In this document: positions 2,874 through 10,503 of the stretch, in pieces
Layout: each line of letters starts with the position of its first letter
Position numbering within the stretch: the first letter of the stretch is position 1
Source of the DNA: Desulfatibacillum alkenivorans DSM 16219
Lineage (GTDB): Bacteria; Desulfobacterota; Desulfobacteria; Desulfobacterales; Desulfatibacillaceae
NCBI RefSeq assembly: GCF_900142135.1
Contig: NZ_FQZU01000010.1
Span: forward strand, 1-64,000
Direction of reading: 5' to 3'
Length of the DNA stretch: 64,000 nt
Program-made: the position numbers and the translations under genes
The notes under the pieces: generated by a model
Database searches by the model: none
The model's input: the letters and a program-made list of their open reading frames with translations, nothing else
Told to the model about the DNA's origin: nothing

Positions 2874-4304
2874 TTAATGCTTTTTGTATTCTTTGATCCA
2901 CTGATTAAAGGTCGGCCTTCCCATGGGCGGCAGGTCGCGGGATGCGAACCAGCCTTCAGGCTTGCCGAACAGTTCCTTGACCATGCCGCCCTGCTTTTTC
3001 TGGTTCAAGGCGGTGCGGGCTCCACGAATCATGACGTTCCACACCTTGGGGCGGGAGGCGGCCAGGGCGAAGGCCCGATATCTGGCTTCCAGGGAGGACG
3101 GCGCGCCGGCGCCGTGGAATTGGGGATTTTTCTCCCGGTTTCTGGCCCGATGGGTCAACAGGATTTTGGGGTGCTCCACGCCGCCGGGGCATACGGACTG
3201 GCAGTGCTTGCACAAGGTGCAGGAGTGGTAAAGGTCCTTGGTTTTATCCAGGCCCAATAGCATGGGGGAGAGCACCTGGCCCATGGGGCCGGAATAAGCC
3301 CAGCCGTAGCTGTATCCCCCGACCTTGCGGTAGATGGGGCAGAAATTAAGGCACGCGCCGCAACGGATGCACTGGAGCGCCTGGCGGTAGGCGGGGTCTG
3401 CATAAACCTTGGAGCGCCCGTTATCCAGAATAATGATGTGCAACTCCTCGGGGCCGTCCGCCTCATCGGCCTTTTTCGGCCCCGTATCCATGGACACGTA
3501 GGCGGAAATCAACTGGCCGGTTGCGCTGCGCGGCAGGTTCCTGAGGACCATCAGGGCTTCTTCCATGGTGGGAAGCACCTTTTCCAAAGTCATGATGGAA
3601 ACCTGGACCTTGGGCGAGGATTTGCACATGCGGATGTTGCCTTCGTTCTCCACATTGATGATGGTTCCTGTTTCCGCCACGGCCATATTCACGCCTGTGA
3701 CGCCTATGTCCAGGAAATGGAACCGGTCCCGGAGGTATTTTCTGGCCGCCCTGCCCAATTCCACGGGATCTTCCGTAGGCGCCTCCATCACGCCTTTTTC
3801 CAGAAAAATGTCCCGGATTTCCGCCGTGGGCACGTTAAGGGCCGGACCGACAATATGGAAGGGTGGCCGCTCCAAAAGCTGGGCGATGAACTCCCCCAGG
3901 TCGGTTTCGTAGGCTGCGATCCCCACGTCTTCCAGGGCCTGGTTAAGGCCCGTCTCCTCCGTCACCATGGACTTGCCCTTGGCCGCATGCCTGGCGCCCA
4001 GTTTTTGGGCCAGATCCACAATATAGGCGTTGGCCTGGGCGCTGTCCTCGGCCCAGACCACCTTGGCGCCCGCCCTGACGGCCTGCTCTTCAAATTGCTC
4101 CAGCAGCTTGGGCAGCCTGGCCACCGCGTTGGCGCGGATATCCCGGCAGGCCTGGATGGCCGCCTGGGGATCTTCAAAGCTCTGGTACACGGCGTCACGC
4201 ATGGCGCTTAGGATCACGGGGAAGAAATCCAGCACGGCGCGGGCGTTGGGTTCTTTCAATTGCTCACGGGCGATATCCATATATTCGTGGGTGCGGATCT
4301 TCAT
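2874..4304 (-). CDS. LutB-like LUD/ferredoxin iron-sulfur protein
   Basis: A 476-residue two-part electron-transfer protein. Residues of about 65-300 form the LUD domain (VTGVNMAVAETGTI). The C-terminal part has two [4Fe-4S] motifs: Cys312, 315, 318, 322 (CIRCGACLNFCP) and Cys362, 365, 368, 372 (CTLCKHCQSVCP). This is the usual LutB size and layout. In LutABC enzymes it relays electrons from lactate; in sulfate reducers such proteins connect to the menaquinone or Fe-S network. It lies 11 bp after the LutA-like gene. The methyltransferase genes upstream make electron transfer to or from a corrinoid or folate reaction an alternative role. Confidence 0.9.
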   Translation of the reverse strand: MKIRTHEYMDIAREQLKEPNARAVLDFFPVILSAMRDAVYQSFEDPQAAIQACRDIRANAVARLPKLLEQFEEQAVRAGAKVVWAEDSAQANAYIVDLAQKLGARHAAKGKSMVTEETGLNQALEDVGIAAYETDLGEFIAQLLERPPFHIVGPALNVPTAEIRDIFLEKGVMEAPTEDPVELGRAARKYLRDRFHFLDIGVTGVNMAVAETGTIINVENEGNIRMCKSSPKVQVSIMTLEKVLPTMEEALMVLRNLPRSATGQLISAYVSMDTGPKKADEADGPEELHIIILDNGRSKVYADPAYRQALQCIRCGACLNFCPIYRKVGGYSYGWAYSGPMGQVLSPMLLGLDKTKDLYHSCTLCKHCQSVCPGGVEHPKILLTHRARNREKNPQFHGAGAPSSLEARYRAFALAASRPKVWNVMIRGARTALNQKKQGGMVKELFGKPEGWFASRDLPPMGRPTFNQWIKEYKKH

Positions 4305-4315
4305 ATAAGCGCCTC

Positions 4316-5047
4316 TCAGGAATCGGTGGGGCCGGCCAAAAGGTCGGCGATGTGCATGACTTTTCTACCGGGATGGTTGCGGGACACGTATCCGCTGATA
4401 TTCAAAAGGCAGCCCGGCTCGCCCATGACCAGAACGTCGGCTCCGGAGTTGATGAAATTGGTCACTTTTTCCTGGACCATGGTTTCGGAAATCTCCGAGT
4501 ATTTATGGGAGAATTCCCCGCCGAATCCGCAGCACACGTCGGCGTTTTGCATGGGGACCAGCTCGGCGCCTTTGACGGAGGCTATGAGCTTTTTAGGCTG
4601 TTCGGACACGCCCAAGCCCCGCAAAAGGCTGCACGACTCATGGTACGCCACCTTGCCGGAGAATGTTGCTCCGGTATCTTCAACCCCGAGGACGTCCACC
4701 AGGTATTGGGTGAACTCATAGGTCTTGGAAGCCATGTCCCGGGCCCGGGCCTTCCATTCCGGCTCGTCTTCAAACAGGGCCGGATACCGCTGGGTGATCA
4801 TTTCCACGCAGGACCCGGAAGGCGAAACCACCACGGGGTCGTCTCCGAAAACCTCTAGAAAATGCTTGGCGACCTTGCGGGCTTCCGGCAGAAATCCGGC
4901 GTTGGACGCGGGCAGGCCGCAGCAGGTTTGCTCTTCGTGATAGACAAACGGGATGTCCAGCCTTTCCAGCAAGCGGACGACGGATTTGCCCGTCTTTGGC
5001 ATGAACATATTCATGAGACAGGGGATGTGCAGGGAGATTGGCGTCAT
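4316..5047 (-). CDS. LutA-like protein with two CCG domains
   Basis: A 243-residue protein with two cysteine-rich CCG domains: Cys10 with CCG at 42-44, then HESC at about 136-139 with CCG at 172-174. The same domain binds the unusual noncubane [4Fe-4S] clusters of HdrB and is found in LutA/YkgE, glycolate oxidase subunit F and succinate dehydrogenase E. The start at 5047 is chosen because AAGGAA precedes that ATG and the product then begins as LutA proteins do (ISLHIPCLMN); the longer upstream frame has no homologous sequence. It follows the pterin methyltransferase gene by 26 bp. Confidence 0.9.
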   Translation of the reverse strand: MTPISLHIPCLMNMFMPKTGKSVVRLLERLDIPFVYHEEQTCCGLPASNAGFLPEARKVAKHFLEVFGDDPVVVSPSGSCVEMITQRYPALFEDEPEWKARARDMASKTYEFTQYLVDVLGVEDTGATFSGKVAYHESCSLLRGLGVSEQPKKLIASVKGAELVPMQNADVCCGFGGEFSHKYSEISETMVQEKVTNFINSGADVLVMGEPGCLLNISGYVSRNHPGRKVMHIADLLAGPTDS

Positions 5048-5073: not shown

Positions 5074-5901
5074 CTAAAGGTCCGCTCCGGTTTGACCGGC
5101 GAGGCTTGGCTCCAGGGCGCCGGCTCTGAAAGCCTTTAGGTAGTTCATGCAAAAGCCGTCCTTGCCCACCAAGGTTTCGGCTGCGGCGATAGCGGCCATC
5201 ATTTCTTTATCCAGAGGATTAATTATGGCGCCGTCCAGCCCTCGCCCTATCGCCAGTATCATGAAGGTCCTGTTGAGCAGTTTGCGAACAGGCAGCCCGT
5301 AGCTGATGTTGCTAAGTCCGCACATGGCATGGACCGAGGGAAAGAGGTTCAGGATATCCCCCATGGCCAGGAGAAATTGTTCTCCAAAGCCGGCGTCCGT
5401 GGCGACCGGCTGCACAAGGGGGTCCACATAGATATCGTCGGCGTTCATGCCGGCCTGCAACAATCCGCAAACCATCCTTTCTGCAATTTCTACGCGCTGT
5501 TCCCTGCTTTTGGGCATGCCTTGGTCAGAGGTGCACAAGGCCACCAGTTTGCATGGATTATTGGCCGCCAGGGGCAATAGCGAGTCCCAGCGCGTCTTTT
5601 CCAGACTGATGCTGTTCACCAGGGGCGCGCCCTGGTGCACCTCCATGGCCGCTTTAATGGCTTGGGGGTTGGGGCTGTCCAGGGCGCAGGGCAGGTTCGT
5701 CGCCTCCTGCACCACTTTCACAAGCCAGGAAAGGTATTTGGGCTCCTGTTCCGGGAAGACGCCTGCATTGACGTCGATATAGTGAGCGCCCGCTTTTTCC
5801 TGGGCTTTGGCAAGGTCCGCCACAAATTTTTCGTCCTGTTTTTCAATGGCGTTTTTTACGGCGGGCCGGCTGGCGTTTAACAATTCGCCTACGATAATCA
5901 T
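5074..5901 (-). CDS. Methyltetrahydrofolate:corrinoid methyltransferase (DHPS-fold)
   Basis: A 275-residue pterin-binding TIM-barrel protein of the MeTr/AcsE/MtgA group, which moves a methyl group between tetrahydrofolate and a corrinoid protein. It starts MIIVGELLNASRPAV, followed by YIDVNAG (about 42-48), CALDSPNPQAI and a VNSIS block, matching the pterin-site strands of the family. ATG at 5901 has GAGGT at good spacing; an upstream in-frame start adds 12 unrelated residues. The UroD-family methyltransferase and the corrinoid protein just upstream suggest the order substrate, corrinoid protein, tetrahydrofolate, as in MtgBCA-type demethylation systems. The methyl donor cannot be read from the sequence. 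Confidence 0.85.
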   Translation of the reverse strand: MIIVGELLNASRPAVKNAIEKQDEKFVADLAKAQEKAGAHYIDVNAGVFPEQEPKYLSWLVKVVQEATNLPCALDSPNPQAIKAAMEVHQGAPLVNSISLEKTRWDSLLPLAANNPCKLVALCTSDQGMPKSREQRVEIAERMVCGLLQAGMNADDIYVDPLVQPVATDAGFGEQFLLAMGDILNLFPSVHAMCGLSNISYGLPVRKLLNRTFMILAIGRGLDGAIINPLDKEMMAAIAAAETLVGKDGFCMNYLKAFRAGALEPSLAGQTGADL

Positions 5902-5960
5902 AATGACCTCTATGGGGTTTTGTGTCAAGCCCGGCATGGCATGCCGGGCTTGGGTGCGTT

Positions 5961-7013
5961 TCAGTCCAGATCGAGCGGATAAACCCCGAACTCATGAATG
6001 GCCTTGACCATGGCCACATAGTTTTCGGGCTTGACCCCGGAATGAATGGAGTTGCTGGACATGCAGACGTATCCGCCGCCTTTGCCGGCTTTGCGGATGC
6101 AATCCTTTACTTCCCGAACCACCTCGTCCTGGGGGGCTTCGCAAAGGGTGTAAGCACAGCTGACATTGCCGCACAGGGTGACCTGGTCTCCGTATTTTTT
6201 CTTGATTTCCTCCAGGTCAAGCCCCGCCATGGGATCGATGGGATGAAGGCCGTCGATTCCCGTGGCGAGCATGTCGTCAATGATTGGCATGATATTGCCG
6301 TCGCTGTGCTTCAGCACCGGCAGTCCGTGGGCGTGACCCAATTCCACGGCGGCTTTTAAAGGAGGCAGCAGAAACTGCCTGGTCATGGCCGGGGAGACCA
6401 TGGGGGCGGTGGTGGTTGCGAAGTCGCCTGTGATGAACAGGGCGTCCGCCCCCACTTCGATGCAGTTTTTCAGGTACCGGAGATTGTAATCCAGGATGAT
6501 TTCCTGAACCTGTTGGATATAATCGGGATCCTGAATCATGGCCGTGAAGTAGGGAACGTCTCCAATCAGGCTTTCCCGGGCGATGTCGAACACGTCCGTG
6601 GCGTGGGCGATGCACGCCCGCTCGCCCTTCCAGCGCTTGACCCATGCTTGGAGCCAAAGATAGCGTTCCGGCCGGTCCGGGTCCGGCGGGGTGTATGCCT
6701 CCAGGTCCTGGGGGCCTGCCAGGGCCGGAGACATGGGGCTGGGCTGATTGGAGGTCAGGCGCTGGAGTCCTCCCCAGATATCGCGTACGATTCCTTTTTC
6801 CGGGTCCTGGAGTTCCCAGTTCCATCCGGTGAGTTTGTCGTATCCCACCACGCAGTCGATATCCAGAAGCTCGATAAAGTCCTCATAGGTCCCCCCTTCG
6901 GGCGCAATGGCCTGCCAAACAGCGGGGTTATGAAGTTCGCCATGGGGGACCCTGTCCGGCTCCTGGTGCTTCAGGGTGGTGAGCATTCTTTCCAAACCTG
7001 TCATAGTTTTCAT
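5961..7013 (-). CDS. Uroporphyrinogen decarboxylase-family corrinoid methyltransferase
   Basis: A 350-residue UroD-fold protein. Members next to corrinoid proteins (MtaA, MtbA, CmuA, O-demethylase components) are methyltransferases rather than heme enzymes. The conserved core LKHSDGNIMPIIDDM is at about 235-249, and LHPIDPMAG then CGNVSC follow. The Zn-binding His-x-Cys of MtaA-type enzymes is replaced here by His236-Ser-Asp238, so this is not a standard MtaA and its chemistry is open. ATG at 7013 is preceded by GGAGG. It begins 13 bp after the corrinoid-protein gene and is almost certainly co-transcribed with it. Confidence 0.85.
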   Translation of the reverse strand: MKTMTGLERMLTTLKHQEPDRVPHGELHNPAVWQAIAPEGGTYEDFIELLDIDCVVGYDKLTGWNWELQDPEKGIVRDIWGGLQRLTSNQPSPMSPALAGPQDLEAYTPPDPDRPERYLWLQAWVKRWKGERACIAHATDVFDIARESLIGDVPYFTAMIQDPDYIQQVQEIILDYNLRYLKNCIEVGADALFITGDFATTTAPMVSPAMTRQFLLPPLKAAVELGHAHGLPVLKHSDGNIMPIIDDMLATGIDGLHPIDPMAGLDLEEIKKKYGDQVTLCGNVSCAYTLCEAPQDEVVREVKDCIRKAGKGGGYVCMSSNSIHSGVKPENYVAMVKAIHEFGVYPLDLD

Positions 7014-7026
7014 GGATCGCCTCCTG

Positions 7027-7665
7027 TTATTGGCCCTGCATCAAGGCTTGGGCCTTGGTAACGGCGTCCCACGCATCAAATCCGATGGCGTCCGCGCCGA
7101 TTTTGTTGCAGAATTCCTGGGTAAGGGGCGCCCCCCCGATCATGATTTTCGGGGCGGGGTCCAGGCCGGACTCTTTCAGGGCCTTCACGGCCTCCTCCAT
7201 GGCTCCCATGGTCATGGTAAGGAGTCCGGACAGGCCGATGACATCATAGTGTTTTTCGGCGGCCATGGCGCAAAATGCCTGGGCTTCCACGTCCACTCCC
7301 GCGTCATCCACCTCCCATCCGTTAACCTTCAGAATCATGGACACGATGTTTTTTCCGATGTCATGGATATCGCCCCGGACGGTTCCTATGAGAAAGCTGC
7401 CTGTGCGTTTTGCGGCGTTGGGGGGGATATGGGGCTCCACCATGTCCACGGCTTCCTGGACTCCCTGGCCGGCCACCAGGAGTTCGGGAAGGAAATAGAT
7501 TCCCTGGGCGAATTTTTCTCCCACATCCTGGATGCCGGCCACCAGGCCTTCCTGGATAATGCGGCCCGGCTCCGTGTTTTGCTCCAGGGCTTGTTTTGTC
7601 AGGGAAAGGACGTCGTCCGTCCGGCATTGGATGACGGCTTGTTTGAGTTCATTGAGGGTGTTCAT
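7027..7665 (-). CDS. Corrinoid (cobalamin-binding) methyltransferase protein
   Basis: A 212-residue MtbC/MttC/MtgC-type protein. A helical cap (about 1-85) precedes a B12-binding Rossmann domain with D99-x-H101-x-x-G104 (GDIHDIGKN), whose histidine is the lower cobalt ligand, then GLSGLLTMT and GGAPLT. It carries methyl groups between the UroD-type and pterin methyltransferases encoded downstream. GGAG precedes the ATG. It is the first gene of the methyltransferase-Lut run, behind a TetR-type operator (7696-7717). No gene for a reductive activator of Co(II) was found in the window. Confidence 0.93.
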   Translation of the reverse strand: MNTLNELKQAVIQCRTDDVLSLTKQALEQNTEPGRIIQEGLVAGIQDVGEKFAQGIYFLPELLVAGQGVQEAVDMVEPHIPPNAAKRTGSFLIGTVRGDIHDIGKNIVSMILKVNGWEVDDAGVDVEAQAFCAMAAEKHYDVIGLSGLLTMTMGAMEEAVKALKESGLDPAPKIMIGGAPLTQEFCNKIGADAIGFDAWDAVTKAQALMQGQ

Positions 7666-7695
7666 GGGCGTCTCCTTTGTTGGTGTTGTCGCATA

Positions 7696-7717
7696 TTATA
7701 CCGACCGCTCGGTATAA
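7696..7717. promoter_or_regulatory. TetR-type operator upstream of the corrinoid operon
   Basis: Perfect 9-bp arms, TTATACCGA and TCGGTATAA, flank a 4-bp centre (CCGC). ACCGA...TCGGT palindromes are typical TetR-family operators. It lies 31 bp upstream of the corrinoid-protein start codon and 147 bp downstream of the gene encoding a TetR-domain protein, so repression by that protein is the natural inference. Confidence 0.7.
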
Positions 7718-7745
7718 GAATGCTTAAGACGTTTCCTCCTGTCAA
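7717..7745 (-). promoter_or_regulatory. Candidate sigma-70 promoter of the corrinoid operon
   Basis: On the minus strand TTGACA (7745-7740) is followed after 17 bp by CATTCT (7722-7717). The -10 is poor, but the palindromic operator abuts it, as expected for a repressed promoter. Confidence 0.4.
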
Positions 7746-7864
7746 GCGTTTTTTTGAGAGACGTCCCATGTTGTGTTCTCTTTTTCAATGCTATCAGGAT
7801 ATTATGGGGATCTTTCAAACGCCATGGAAAAAAGGCGTCGGTGGTGTCATGGTGTGAAAAGTGG

Positions 7865-9529
7865 TCAGGGCGTCCGGCGGAATCGGAAATAGGGGCCCAG
7901 CACCCGGCTCCAGGCGTTGCGGAGCCTCTGGTAATGGGCTTCGTCCCCGGACACGATGGATTGGATGGCCATGCCCCGGGACAGGTACAGGCTCAAATCC
8001 ATGAGCAGGTCGGGAGGGATGCTGTCCGGCCCGGCGGATTCCAGCGTCTCCGCCGTCAATTCGCCCACCGTGTTGAAAAAATCCCGGGTCACGGGCTCTA
8101 TCAGAGCGCGCAGTTGGGCGTCCGTGCGGGCGGCTACCGTGAATTCCAGCCAGACGTTGCGATGCCAGCCTTGATGAAAAGTGGCCCAGATAAAATCGAA
8201 CATGGCGTGCAAAGGGTCGGGTTCTTTAGCCAGGCGGGGAGCGTTGGCCCGGGCCAGGCGAGCTGTGCCCTCATACATGGCGCGGGCTGCAGCGGCCACC
8301 AGGGCGGTCTTGTTTTTAAAGTGGTGGCGCCACGCGCCCCGGGACACGCCGGCATGGTCAAGAATACGGGATAGGGTGGCGCCGTGGTATCCATGTTCAT
8401 GCAGGCAGTACAGCGTGGACAGGATCAATTGGCGGCGGGTTTTCTGGGATTTGTCCTCCTGGCCCCGGGAGCGGTTGAGGCCTCGCGCATCATGGATAAA
8501 GCTCAGGTCGTGAATGCGCCGCTTTATGCTGGGCATCACGTCATCCGAGACCGGGGCCTCTCCTCCGTTTTCATGGAGGGCCAGGGCTTCCTCCACGGCC
8601 GTCCGGGCCTCTTGGAGGGACGGGTCCCTGCCGGCCCTGCGCGACTCAAAGGCTTTCATAAGGTGGCTGACGGCCGAATCCGTGACTCCAAAGGCCCCGG
8701 CGATTTCCTGGCTGGTGAATCGCCCTCCCTGAAAAAGAAAGGCGATCAGGGCGTCCCGCAGATCCTTGGCGAAATTGCGTTTTCTGGTCCGGGAAAGCAG
8801 CGCCGCCCTGGAAATTCCGCCGTGGGCGCAAACCAGGGCTATGGCCTGATTGATTTGTTGCTGGACCGCGTCGCCGTTCGCTCCGGTTCCCGGGAGAGGG
8901 CATCGGCTGTCCTTGGCGCCGCCGGTTTGGTCCAGGAGGTTGCGCGCCCAGGACGGCGATCCGAGAAAGGCTCCATGCAGGCGCCGGTTCAAGGGGTTTT
9001 CTCCCTTTTGCGTGAAGCGGTTGAAGTCCGCCGTGTAAGGCTTGTTTTCAAGCAAATCCATAATGGGGGACGGGGTCAGATATCCCGGGTGCGGGGCCAT
9101 GCCCGCATATGCCCGGAAACTGCTCCATTGATAGGCGGCCGGGTCTGTTCCGGTTAACGCCCGGGGAAGGTTGTGGATGTAGTGGCTCAGGTCAAGGAGG
9201 GTTTTAGGGTTTTCAATTAGACTTGCTTTGTACCGCCCTTTGAAAACAGCCCCTTTGCGGCGCCGCAACTCGTTGCATTTGCGTGCGAAGGCGGTGCTGA
9301 ACCATTGAAAAGCGCGGCTCAGGTTGGGCTGCTCCGTTTTGATCAGTACGTGATACTCCCGGGGCATGATTGCGTAAGCGAAAATCTGCAGGGAGAATCG
9401 GTCGGCGGTGCGCGCCAGCAGATCCAAGAGGTTTTGGGGAGTCTGGTCTGGGGCGGCGAGGTCAACCGCGGACCGGGCGTGTACATAATAAAGCGCGTCT
9501 TTGTATTCAATGCGTGGTATTCGTCCCAT
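7865..9529 (-). CDS. Y1-transposase-like / HTH / TetR fusion regulator
   Basis: One uninterrupted 554-residue frame joins three modules. Residues 1-150 resemble IS200-like Y1 transposases of the RAYT class (YYVHAR, AYAIMPREYHVLIK, KGRYKASLIENP, DLSHYIHNLPRAL, YQWSSFRAY). The family His-x-His is altered: the first His is Glu58 in MPREYH, although Tyr100 lies where the catalytic tyrosine is expected. Residues of about 222-295 contain a helix-turn-helix (FTSQEIAGAFGVTDSAVSHL) like those that follow such domains in domesticated relatives. Residues of about 363-554 form a complete TetR-family regulator with its HTH at 366-410 (LSRILDHAGVSRGAWRHHF) and a ligand-binding helical domain. The inferred role is a local repressor acting on the palindrome at 7696-7717. 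ATG at 9529 begins directly with the Y1 domain. Confidence 0.85.
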   Translation of the reverse strand: MGRIPRIEYKDALYYVHARSAVDLAAPDQTPQNLLDLLARTADRFSLQIFAYAIMPREYHVLIKTEQPNLSRAFQWFSTAFARKCNELRRRKGAVFKGRYKASLIENPKTLLDLSHYIHNLPRALTGTDPAAYQWSSFRAYAGMAPHPGYLTPSPIMDLLENKPYTADFNRFTQKGENPLNRRLHGAFLGSPSWARNLLDQTGGAKDSRCPLPGTGANGDAVQQQINQAIALVCAHGGISRAALLSRTRKRNFAKDLRDALIAFLFQGGRFTSQEIAGAFGVTDSAVSHLMKAFESRRAGRDPSLQEARTAVEEALALHENGGEAPVSDDVMPSIKRRIHDLSFIHDARGLNRSRGQEDKSQKTRRQLILSTLYCLHEHGYHGATLSRILDHAGVSRGAWRHHFKNKTALVAAAARAMYEGTARLARANAPRLAKEPDPLHAMFDFIWATFHQGWHRNVWLEFTVAARTDAQLRALIEPVTRDFFNTVGELTAETLESAGPDSIPPDLLMDLSLYLSRGMAIQSIVSGDEAHYQRLRNAWSRVLGPYFRFRRTP

Positions 9530-9639
9530 GCTTTGAATTTAAAAGCAAAGCCGGGCAATGTCAAGGGCAAGCCTGCGTCTGGGGAAAAGCCGCGCCCATG
9601 GTATGTGCAAATTGAAGAATGCCGATGACCAAAACGGCG

Positions 9640-10503
9640 TCACACCAGATTGTTTTTAGCGGCCCAGACGGCCGCCTGGGTCCGGTCGTTCACGCCCAGT
9701 TTGTTGAAAACGTGAATCACGTGGCTTTTCACGGTGTGGGGGCTGATTTCCAGCATGTCCGAAATTTCCCCGTTGGTGAATCCCTCGGCCATCAAGCGAA
9801 GCACCTGGATTTCCCGGGTGGTGAGGGTCTCTCCAAAAGGGGCCTGGACCGGATCCTCCGCCTCAGCCGGTTCTGTGCCGCTCTGGGATGCATGGTCTTG
9901 GGGCGGGGTTTCGATTTCCACGGTGGAAACCACTTTTCCTTGCTGGTCAAAGACGGGATACACGACCGTGGAGGCAATGGGCTGGATCAGGTCCGGGCAT
10001 TGGTCCGGGGTGGTCTTGTGCGTGCTGACTGCTGCGGCGAAAGCCATGCAGGTGGGATAGCCGCATTTTCGGCAATTGGTCCTGGGGAGAATTTTAAAGA
10101 TGTCCAGCACCGGGATGTGTTTGTACATGCGATGGTTGGGAGTAATGGAATCCTTTCGGGCGTCCAGGTCGTTCAAAAAGTCCACCAACTTCCAAGCAGC
10201 GGCCACGGCCTCGTCACGGTCCCTGTACAGGCCCATCACCACCCTGTTGGGGTAAAGGGCGCAGCCTGACTCCCCTTTTTTGGGATACAAGGCGCAATCC
10301 GGCTTGTCCCAGTCTTCCTCCCCCCAATGAAAGAGGATGTAGTGGGGCCTTTCAAAATACAGGGCGTCCTCTTTAACCCTGTTGATGTAGGGGAAAAGCC
10401 CCGAAACGTCCTGATCCAGGTTAAACATGGCGTTCCAGGCGGACTGGCTCATGCGCCTGGAAGGCGGGAAGAGCTTGAAGTCGCTGAAACCCTGGATGAG
10501 CAT
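9640..10503 (-). CDS. Fe-S cluster / LuxR-type HTH fusion regulator
   Basis: A 287-residue protein. An N-terminal region of unknown fold (about 1-135) precedes an Fe-S domain with Cys144, 147, 152 and 169 (NCRKCGYPTC plus a distal Cys), the four-cysteine motif of corrinoid/Fe-S protein large subunits and RnfB. A polar linker leads to a GerE/LuxR HTH at about 225-287 (LTTREIQVLRLMAEGFTNGE, then SPHTVKSHV). It probably controls transcription in response to the state of its [4Fe-4S] cluster. Its place 110 bp upstream of the Y1-TetR gene and near the corrinoid operon suggests control of one-carbon or acetyl-CoA-pathway genes. The target is not visible. Confidence 0.85.
   Translation of the reverse strand: MLIQGFSDFKLFPPSRRMSQSAWNAMFNLDQDVSGLFPYINRVKEDALYFERPHYILFHWGEEDWDKPDCALYPKKGESGCALYPNRVVMGLYRDRDEAVAAAWKLVDFLNDLDARKDSITPNHRMYKHIPVLDIFKILPRTNCRKCGYPTCMAFAAAVSTHKTTPDQCPDLIQPIASTVVYPVFDQQGKVVSTVEIETPPQDHASQSGTEPAEAEDPVQAPFGETLTTREIQVLRLMAEGFTNGEISDMLEISPHTVKSHVIHVFNKLGVNDRTQAAVWAAKNNLV

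Follow-up and report, generated by a model that had tools for sequence, protein, structure and literature searches.

A TetR-type regulator joined to a RAYT-like transposase domain without its active-site motif adjoins corrinoid methyltransferase genes in Desulfatibacillum alkenivorans

A stretch of 64,000 nucleotides from Desulfatibacillum alkenivorans DSM 16219 (the window) contains a gene in which a domain related to the Y1 transposases, a helix-turn-helix (HTH) and a complete TetR regulator follow each other in one frame, which raises the question of whether this is a genuine protein, what has become of its transposase part and which genes it might control. The gene (7865–9529, minus strand) proved to be a single open frame of 554 residues without internal stops in the ORF translation, as the first-pass annotation had claimed, and no missed stop was present between residues 300 and 360, where one had been considered. 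The three modules named there were also recovered by Pfam and NCBIfam matches and, for the Y1 and TetR parts, by the fit of model folds: a Y1/RAYT-like HUH core with a subclass extension and a lost active site, seen in the alignment as well (residues 1–225; 8855–9529), an HTH resembling DnaA_C/HTH_23 (residues 226–305; 8615–8854), a linker (residues 306–355; 8465–8614) and the TetR regulator (residues 356–554; 7868–8464), all on the minus strand.

The strength of the profile matches varied along the protein. TetR_N of Pfam was found at residues 375–414 (3.5e-11, 43.2 bits versus a cut-off of 24) and exceeded the Pfam cut-off also in the two full-length relatives described below (39.6 bits in locus L009 of genome G001 and 36.2 bits in locus L056 of genome G134). 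Y1_Tnp matched residues 31–120 of the window protein with 4.4e-4 and 20.8 bits, i.e. under the Pfam cut-off of 23, and had no match at E ≤ 0.05 in either relative, so that fusions of this kind probably carry plain TetR labels and go overlooked. The REP_Tyr_transpos family of NCBIfam covered residues 28–135 (1.1e-8, sub-cut-off), and the middle HTH gave weak, sub-threshold Bac_DnaA_C/HTH_23 matches in Pfam at residues 228–298; its helices were modeled at a pLDDT of about 90 and the region aligned with an unfused family member. Structure prediction, proposed earlier as a check, resulted in two AlphaFold2 models: model 1 from 46 sequences (mean pLDDT 82.6, pTM 0.62) and model 2 from 49 sequences with more TetR rows (mean pLDDT 88.5, pTM 0.54), the relative domain placement in the latter not being reliable because of its lower pTM. 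Residues 1–183 of model 2 fitted the E. coli REP-associated transposase 4er8 in VIA-align (Z 16.2, rmsd 2.5, 152 aligned), which was also ranked top by Foldseek for both models, and residues 355–548 fitted the TetR protein 5wm9 (Z 16.3, rmsd 2.8, 186 aligned; the VIA-align rows mostly comprise residues 356–549), including the all-helical C-terminal ligand/dimer domain.

Homologs keeping the fusion were found in two other genomes of the Desulfobacterota. Among 59 genomes, including the one under study, full-length matches were present in the latter and in G001, a congener (61% identity over residues 1–552, open frame of 562 aa). Evenly sampled across the phylum, 395 genomes yielded these two and G134, which belongs to another lineage (42% identity over residues 2–551, 559 aa; the bin has 8% contamination, which makes the host lineage less certain than the sequence itself), and among 389 genomes of the order the fusion was again seen only in the window's genome and G001. 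These genome sets and those of the searches for unfused TetR proteins and for URO-D orthologs overlap; in the 395-genome and 389-genome searches for the fusion and in that for unfused TetR proteins three candidate stretches were scored per genome, and weaker extra matches could be missed. A contig scan with the window protein as single query had no match, and an alignment-based scan, with both peptide patterns placed in the Y1 part, kept 80 of 98 relatives, 78 of which matched only up to residue 335. The two full-length ones, Desulfatibacillum sp. MAG7 (L067, JAEINP010000025.1) and bacterium PL23a_bin.76 (L068, JANQFG010000049.1), were G001 and G134 again, which leaves the known members at three. 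An assembly error or a missed stop as the source of the long frame was ruled out by the full-length homologs in two other genomes.

The three fusions formed one clade both in a Y1-HTH tree built by a quick method from 92 sequences (SH-aLRT 100, with a long branch of 1.09 leading to them) and in a TetR tree of 23 sequences (98/98). Since both halves gave a single clade with the same branching, the trees are most simply explained by a single fusion whose two halves were then inherited together. A split precursor, that is a Y1-HTH gene adjoining a TetR gene, was absent from the loci examined, and no separate Y1 gene stood in front of the G001 and G134 fusions or of 18 unfused TetR genes. In locus L062 Y1-HTH and TetR genes were both present, 11 kb apart and on opposite strands.

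The HUH motif of Y1 proteins binds metal. The earlier observation that one of the paired metal-binding histidines is gone from the window protein (MPREYH) was borne out by alignment with 127 distinct unfused homologs, 124 of which have HxH at this site (of the other three, one has a gap and two deviate): residues 58–60 read EYH (9350–9358, minus strand), as in G001, and RYD is found in G134, i.e. the motif has been lost in all three fusions. The nicking position, whose tyrosine we take to correspond to Y115 of the E. coli RAYT, is occupied by Tyr in 120 of the 127 homologs (Asp in two, gapped in five). The window protein does have the tyrosine reported there (Tyr117; 9179–9181, minus strand), but the residue is Cys in G001 and His in G134, and because it is kept in the window only, its retention is no functional signature. 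Out of 49 columns in which at least 80% of the unfused homologs share one residue, 21 were kept in all three fusions, 20 were mixed and eight were lost in all three (H15, G20, I24, N57, H58, H94, Q97 and N121). By our own count on the alignment, Q97 of the window protein aligns with Q95 of the E. coli RAYT, which the accessible text of PMC6006769 lists among the residues for guide-sequence interaction. The pattern suggests that the Y1 domain has probably retained its fold and not its chemistry, and would no longer cut DNA. An unfused gammaproteobacterial Y1-HTH protein (L130, 710–1558, plus strand) has lost its active site as well (SYA, with Asp at the tyrosine position), possibly independently of the fusions.

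The fusion DNA occurs in one copy in the genome, no inverted repeat of at least 14 nt spans the gene, and the published 8-nt TIRYT consensus had no match in the flanks within 7000–10400 and one inside the gene; a mobile element was ruled out by the single copy without long or consensus flanking repeats. One scan of viral contigs, with peptide patterns in the TetR part, found no relative, 61 plasmid records matched, none of which covered 80% of the query at a single site, and PHROGs returned weak matches to the TetR part only.

In all three loci the fusion gene lies directly upstream of genes for a corrinoid protein and a URO-D-type methyltransferase. In the window these are an MtbC-like corrinoid protein (7027–7665) and a member of the URO-D/MtaA/CmuA family (5961–7013; 89% identical in G001 and 73–74% in G134), both assigned with Pfam and NCBIfam, followed by a methyltetrahydrofolate:corrinoid methyltransferase (5074–5937; NF005719, 1.1e-99), a CCG-domain (HdrB-type) protein (4316–5047; Pfam, start placed by hand at MTPIS) and a LutB-like protein with a LUD domain and 4Fe-4S (2874–4304), all on the minus strand. 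G001 has kept all five downstream genes (74–89% identity) as well as the gene upstream of the fusion (66%). The corrinoid protein of G134 is 57% identical, and the 9 kb of that locus showed no methyl-THF methyltransferase, CCG or LUD gene; a row of corrinoid protein, URO-D-type MTI and methyl-THF MTII is therefore present in the window and G001, and its first two members within 9 kb in G134. The best PDB relative of the window MTI, over residues 153–342, was 4ay7, a methylcobalamin:CoM methyltransferase. URO-D orthologs at E ≤ 1e-90 were restricted to four of the 395 genomes of the phylum, namely the three with the fusion and G114, in which a 7.9-kb contig carries corrinoid (47%) and URO-D (54%) genes without Y1 or TetR, so related genes of this kind can do without the fusion. 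On the other side of the fusion gene, in G001 as in the window, lies a gene (9640–10503, minus strand) for a protein with a putative Fe-S cluster motif (PF04060) and a LuxR-type HTH (PF00196), resembling also the gamma subunit of acetyl-CoA decarbonylase/synthase (NF003195); its domains would be compatible with a possible Fe-S-sensing regulator.

The fusion gene has a likely promoter of its own, judged by its match to the consensus (TTGACA-17-TAAATT; 9536–9564, minus strand). In D. alkenivorans and G001 alike it ends 6–7 nt ahead of the ATG (6 nt in the window, 9529–9564; L009 1465–1505 in G001), and the mRNA may for this reason be leaderless. A possible promoter of the corrinoid operon (7717–7745, minus strand) consists of TTGACA (7745–7740), 17 nt and CATTCT (7722–7717), the latter being weak as a -10 box; the promoter scan listed none at 7717–7745. 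A comparable arrangement of TTGACA, 17 or 18 nt and a hexamer precedes the corrinoid gene in L009 of G001 and L056 of G134, with a better -10 (TATCAT) in G134.

The palindrome which the first-pass annotation had placed at 7696–7717 is real: TTATACCGA-N4-TCGGTATAA has perfect 9-nt arms (7696–7704 and 7709–7717) separated by 4 nt, it sits at the operon promoter in a layout common to the three loci, and none of 100 window shuffles matched it with up to three mismatches. ACCGA starts 32, 33 and 37 nt past the start of the TTGACA box in the three loci, which puts the palindrome in the -10/start region; its right half is degenerate in G134. The core ACCGA-N4-TCGGT is not enriched in the genome (six places versus 11 for a control pattern), and alignment by eye of the three intergenic regions revealed no other convincing shared motif. 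In G134 (L056) the stretch that separates the fusion from the corrinoid gene further contains a 19-nt inverted repeat (1948–1966 and 2055–2073, 89%) flanking 88 nt, which was not reported for the other two loci.

Unfused TetR relatives of about 200–240 aa are common in the order, often beside catabolic genes, and provided a comparison. Nine of 18 such loci have a palindrome of the form AAACAnACY-N4-RGTnTGTTT with perfect arms of 7 nt or more in the intergenic gap that directly follows tetR (L159 7630–7651, L163 6837–6858, L169 5964–5985, L059 7309–7330 and others), comprising five distinct sequences, of which L159–L162 share one and L163–L164 another. Their consensus, AAACAAACCGATCGGTTTGTTT (22 bp), differs from the window's palindrome in the flanks, and the sites probably mark a regulon, as far as recurrence and position indicate. 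Some of them precede genes for HgdB-type (2-hydroxyacyl-CoA dehydratase-like) proteins or FAD-dehydrogenases. A motif made from the five palindromes, chosen without reference to the window, placed the corresponding site at the top of both L057 (17 kb) and L056 (9 kb), in each case in the gap before the corrinoid gene, with a chance by gap length alone of about 1.5% and 3.4%, respectively; the window's own site, with its different flanks, came only 25th to 31st in 64 kb. An earlier motif, under which the window site had rank 2, was partly circular, four of its sites having been picked for likeness to the window palindrome. It scored the three sites at 9.2 (window), 13.6 and 14.8, compared with 5.8–15.6 for the best hit in each of 20 window shuffles, and with such a range the motif scores by themselves do not reach significance over 64 kb; it is the ranks in the two smaller loci that count. 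Together with its position this makes 7696–7717 a probable candidate operator of the TetR part.

On balance the gene is best read, with reasonable though far from full confidence, as encoding a TetR-type repressor which permanently carries a catalytically dead RAYT-like transposase and HTH arm and which controls the corrinoid operon. TetR family regulators act as dimers. Given the position and the motif, a dimer of the TetR part would bind the palindrome where the downstream operon begins and thereby block the corrinoid protein, URO-D-type and methyl-THF methyltransferase genes, until a small molecule, perhaps a methylated substrate or product, as might be expected from the family, releases it. 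The Y1-HTH arm would no longer cut DNA and, judging by its conservation, might have been retained as a module that binds nucleic acid or oligomerises and in this way raises affinity, makes a second contact with DNA or holds together a higher-order complex. The earlier description as a 'transposase-derived repressor of a methyltransferase operon' was right about the neighborhood, corrinoid methyltransferase genes adjoining the fusion in all three loci, and overstated the transposase part, since repression is probably the work of the TetR half, which derives from a family whose other regulators occur unfused.

A rival possibility is that the TetR half does all the work and that the Y1-HTH part, left over from read-through between two neighboring genes, is carried along passively and is slowly decaying. 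Between the window and G001 the TetR N-terminal part is 88% identical and the Y1 core 57%, the fusions sit on a long branch of the Y1-HTH tree, and the unfused TetR relatives manage without such an arm, all of which agrees with decay. The codon comparison of the same pair (Nei-Gojobori) nevertheless gave dN/dS values that lay, in rising order, at about 0.08 in TetR N, 0.21 in both the HTH and TetR C, 0.35 in Y1, 0.45 in the linker and 0.53 in the extension, which indicate that every module is constrained, TetR N most strongly; a pseudogene was ruled out by these statistics. Constraint on Y1 and HTH, the 21 family-conserved columns shared by the three fusions and the high model confidence in both modules speak against a mere passenger, which we regard as an unlikely explanation that still deserves some weight.

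It is also conceivable that a separate TetR protein is produced besides the fusion from an internal start in the linker (Met332 in the window, Met339 in G001). G001 has GGAGGAGGTG 8–11 nt ahead of the in-frame ATG, and in the window GGAGGAG stands farther ahead of the corresponding ATG, but there the spacing is long (about 20 nt), the layout differs between the two species, and the unfused relatives have their start only around the position of residue 355 in the window protein; such a second product appears quite improbable. Least credible, to the point of being nearly dismissed, is a Y1 half that still works as a single-strand nuclease or transposase under control of the TetR half: Tyr117 and one histidine are left in the window protein, but none of the three fusions has the HUH motif and two lack the tyrosine, the glutamine aligned with Q95 of the RAYT is gone, and the gene is present as a single DNA copy and not spanned by inverted repeats of at least 14 nt.

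The claim that no regulator of this architecture had been described held for one part of the protein. According to the accessible text of PMC6006769, a Y1 domain followed by a C-terminal HTH of the Bac_DnaA_C/HTH_23 kind defines TnpA-Y1 subclass 2.1.2 (RAYT-like/TIRYT), which its authors linked to TIRYT elements with terminal inverted repeats and near which they found no REP elements. The fusion shares the Y1 core, the extension and the C-terminal HTH with this subclass, but it has lost HUH, showed neither flanking repeats nor further copies, and continues after the HTH into a complete TetR; the word TetR is absent from the main text of that paper. Y1 with HTH was thus already known and only the added TetR is new; no paper describing a Y1-TetR fusion was recognised among the matches listed, which cover the subscription literature thinly and are no proof. 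The E. coli TnpA-REP/RAYT (PDB 4ER8) resembles residues 1–183 in fold (Z 16.2), but its active-site His, the residue at Q95 and, in two of three cases, the tyrosine are replaced in the fusions. The unfused Desulfobacterales TetR proteins share the DNA-binding and C-terminal domains, mostly at 37–45% identity, but lack the Y1-HTH arm and have other neighbor genes. A eukaryotic parallel is SETMAR, in which, as far as covered by the available part of PMC6326780, a host methylase is joined to a transposase-derived DNA-binding part; this likewise combines a host protein with a piece of a transposase, but the transposase is another one and a methylase takes the place of TetR.

The gene set in the window and G001 is that of the three-component corrinoid demethylases and dehalogenases CdmBCA (PMC13222342) and MtoABC (PMC8630106), described in the accessible parts of these papers as consisting of a corrinoid protein, an MTI and a methyl-THF-type MTII, with CdmB being a structural relative of UroD (PMC13222342). 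According to the same part of PMC13222342, no regulatory system has been identified yet for cdmBCA, and the regulation of methyltransferase systems in Acetobacterium dehalogenans is largely unexplored.

By the features that were tested the fusion protein is, at the level of sequence, a TetR regulator, and a HUH transposase by descent, with the motif lost. One speculative extension, to which we would attach only slight expectation, is that the HUH domain, though dead, has kept the ability to bind a folded single strand, either a DNA hairpin or mRNA. If true, this would constitute a new class of bacterial repressors, in which TetR reads a double-strand palindrome and a domain taken from a transposase reads hairpins, and the palindrome might be read in both linear and extruded forms or the repressor be tethered by the transcript of its own operator. 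RAYTs are discussed in the available text of PMC6006769 as processors of single-strand DNA; the fusion presents a RAYT that has lost its active-site motif and become permanently attached to a gene switch, and the sequences give evidence of both steps. For corrinoid methyltransferase systems of this general kind, the locus offers a candidate regulator, a candidate operator and a candidate target operon.
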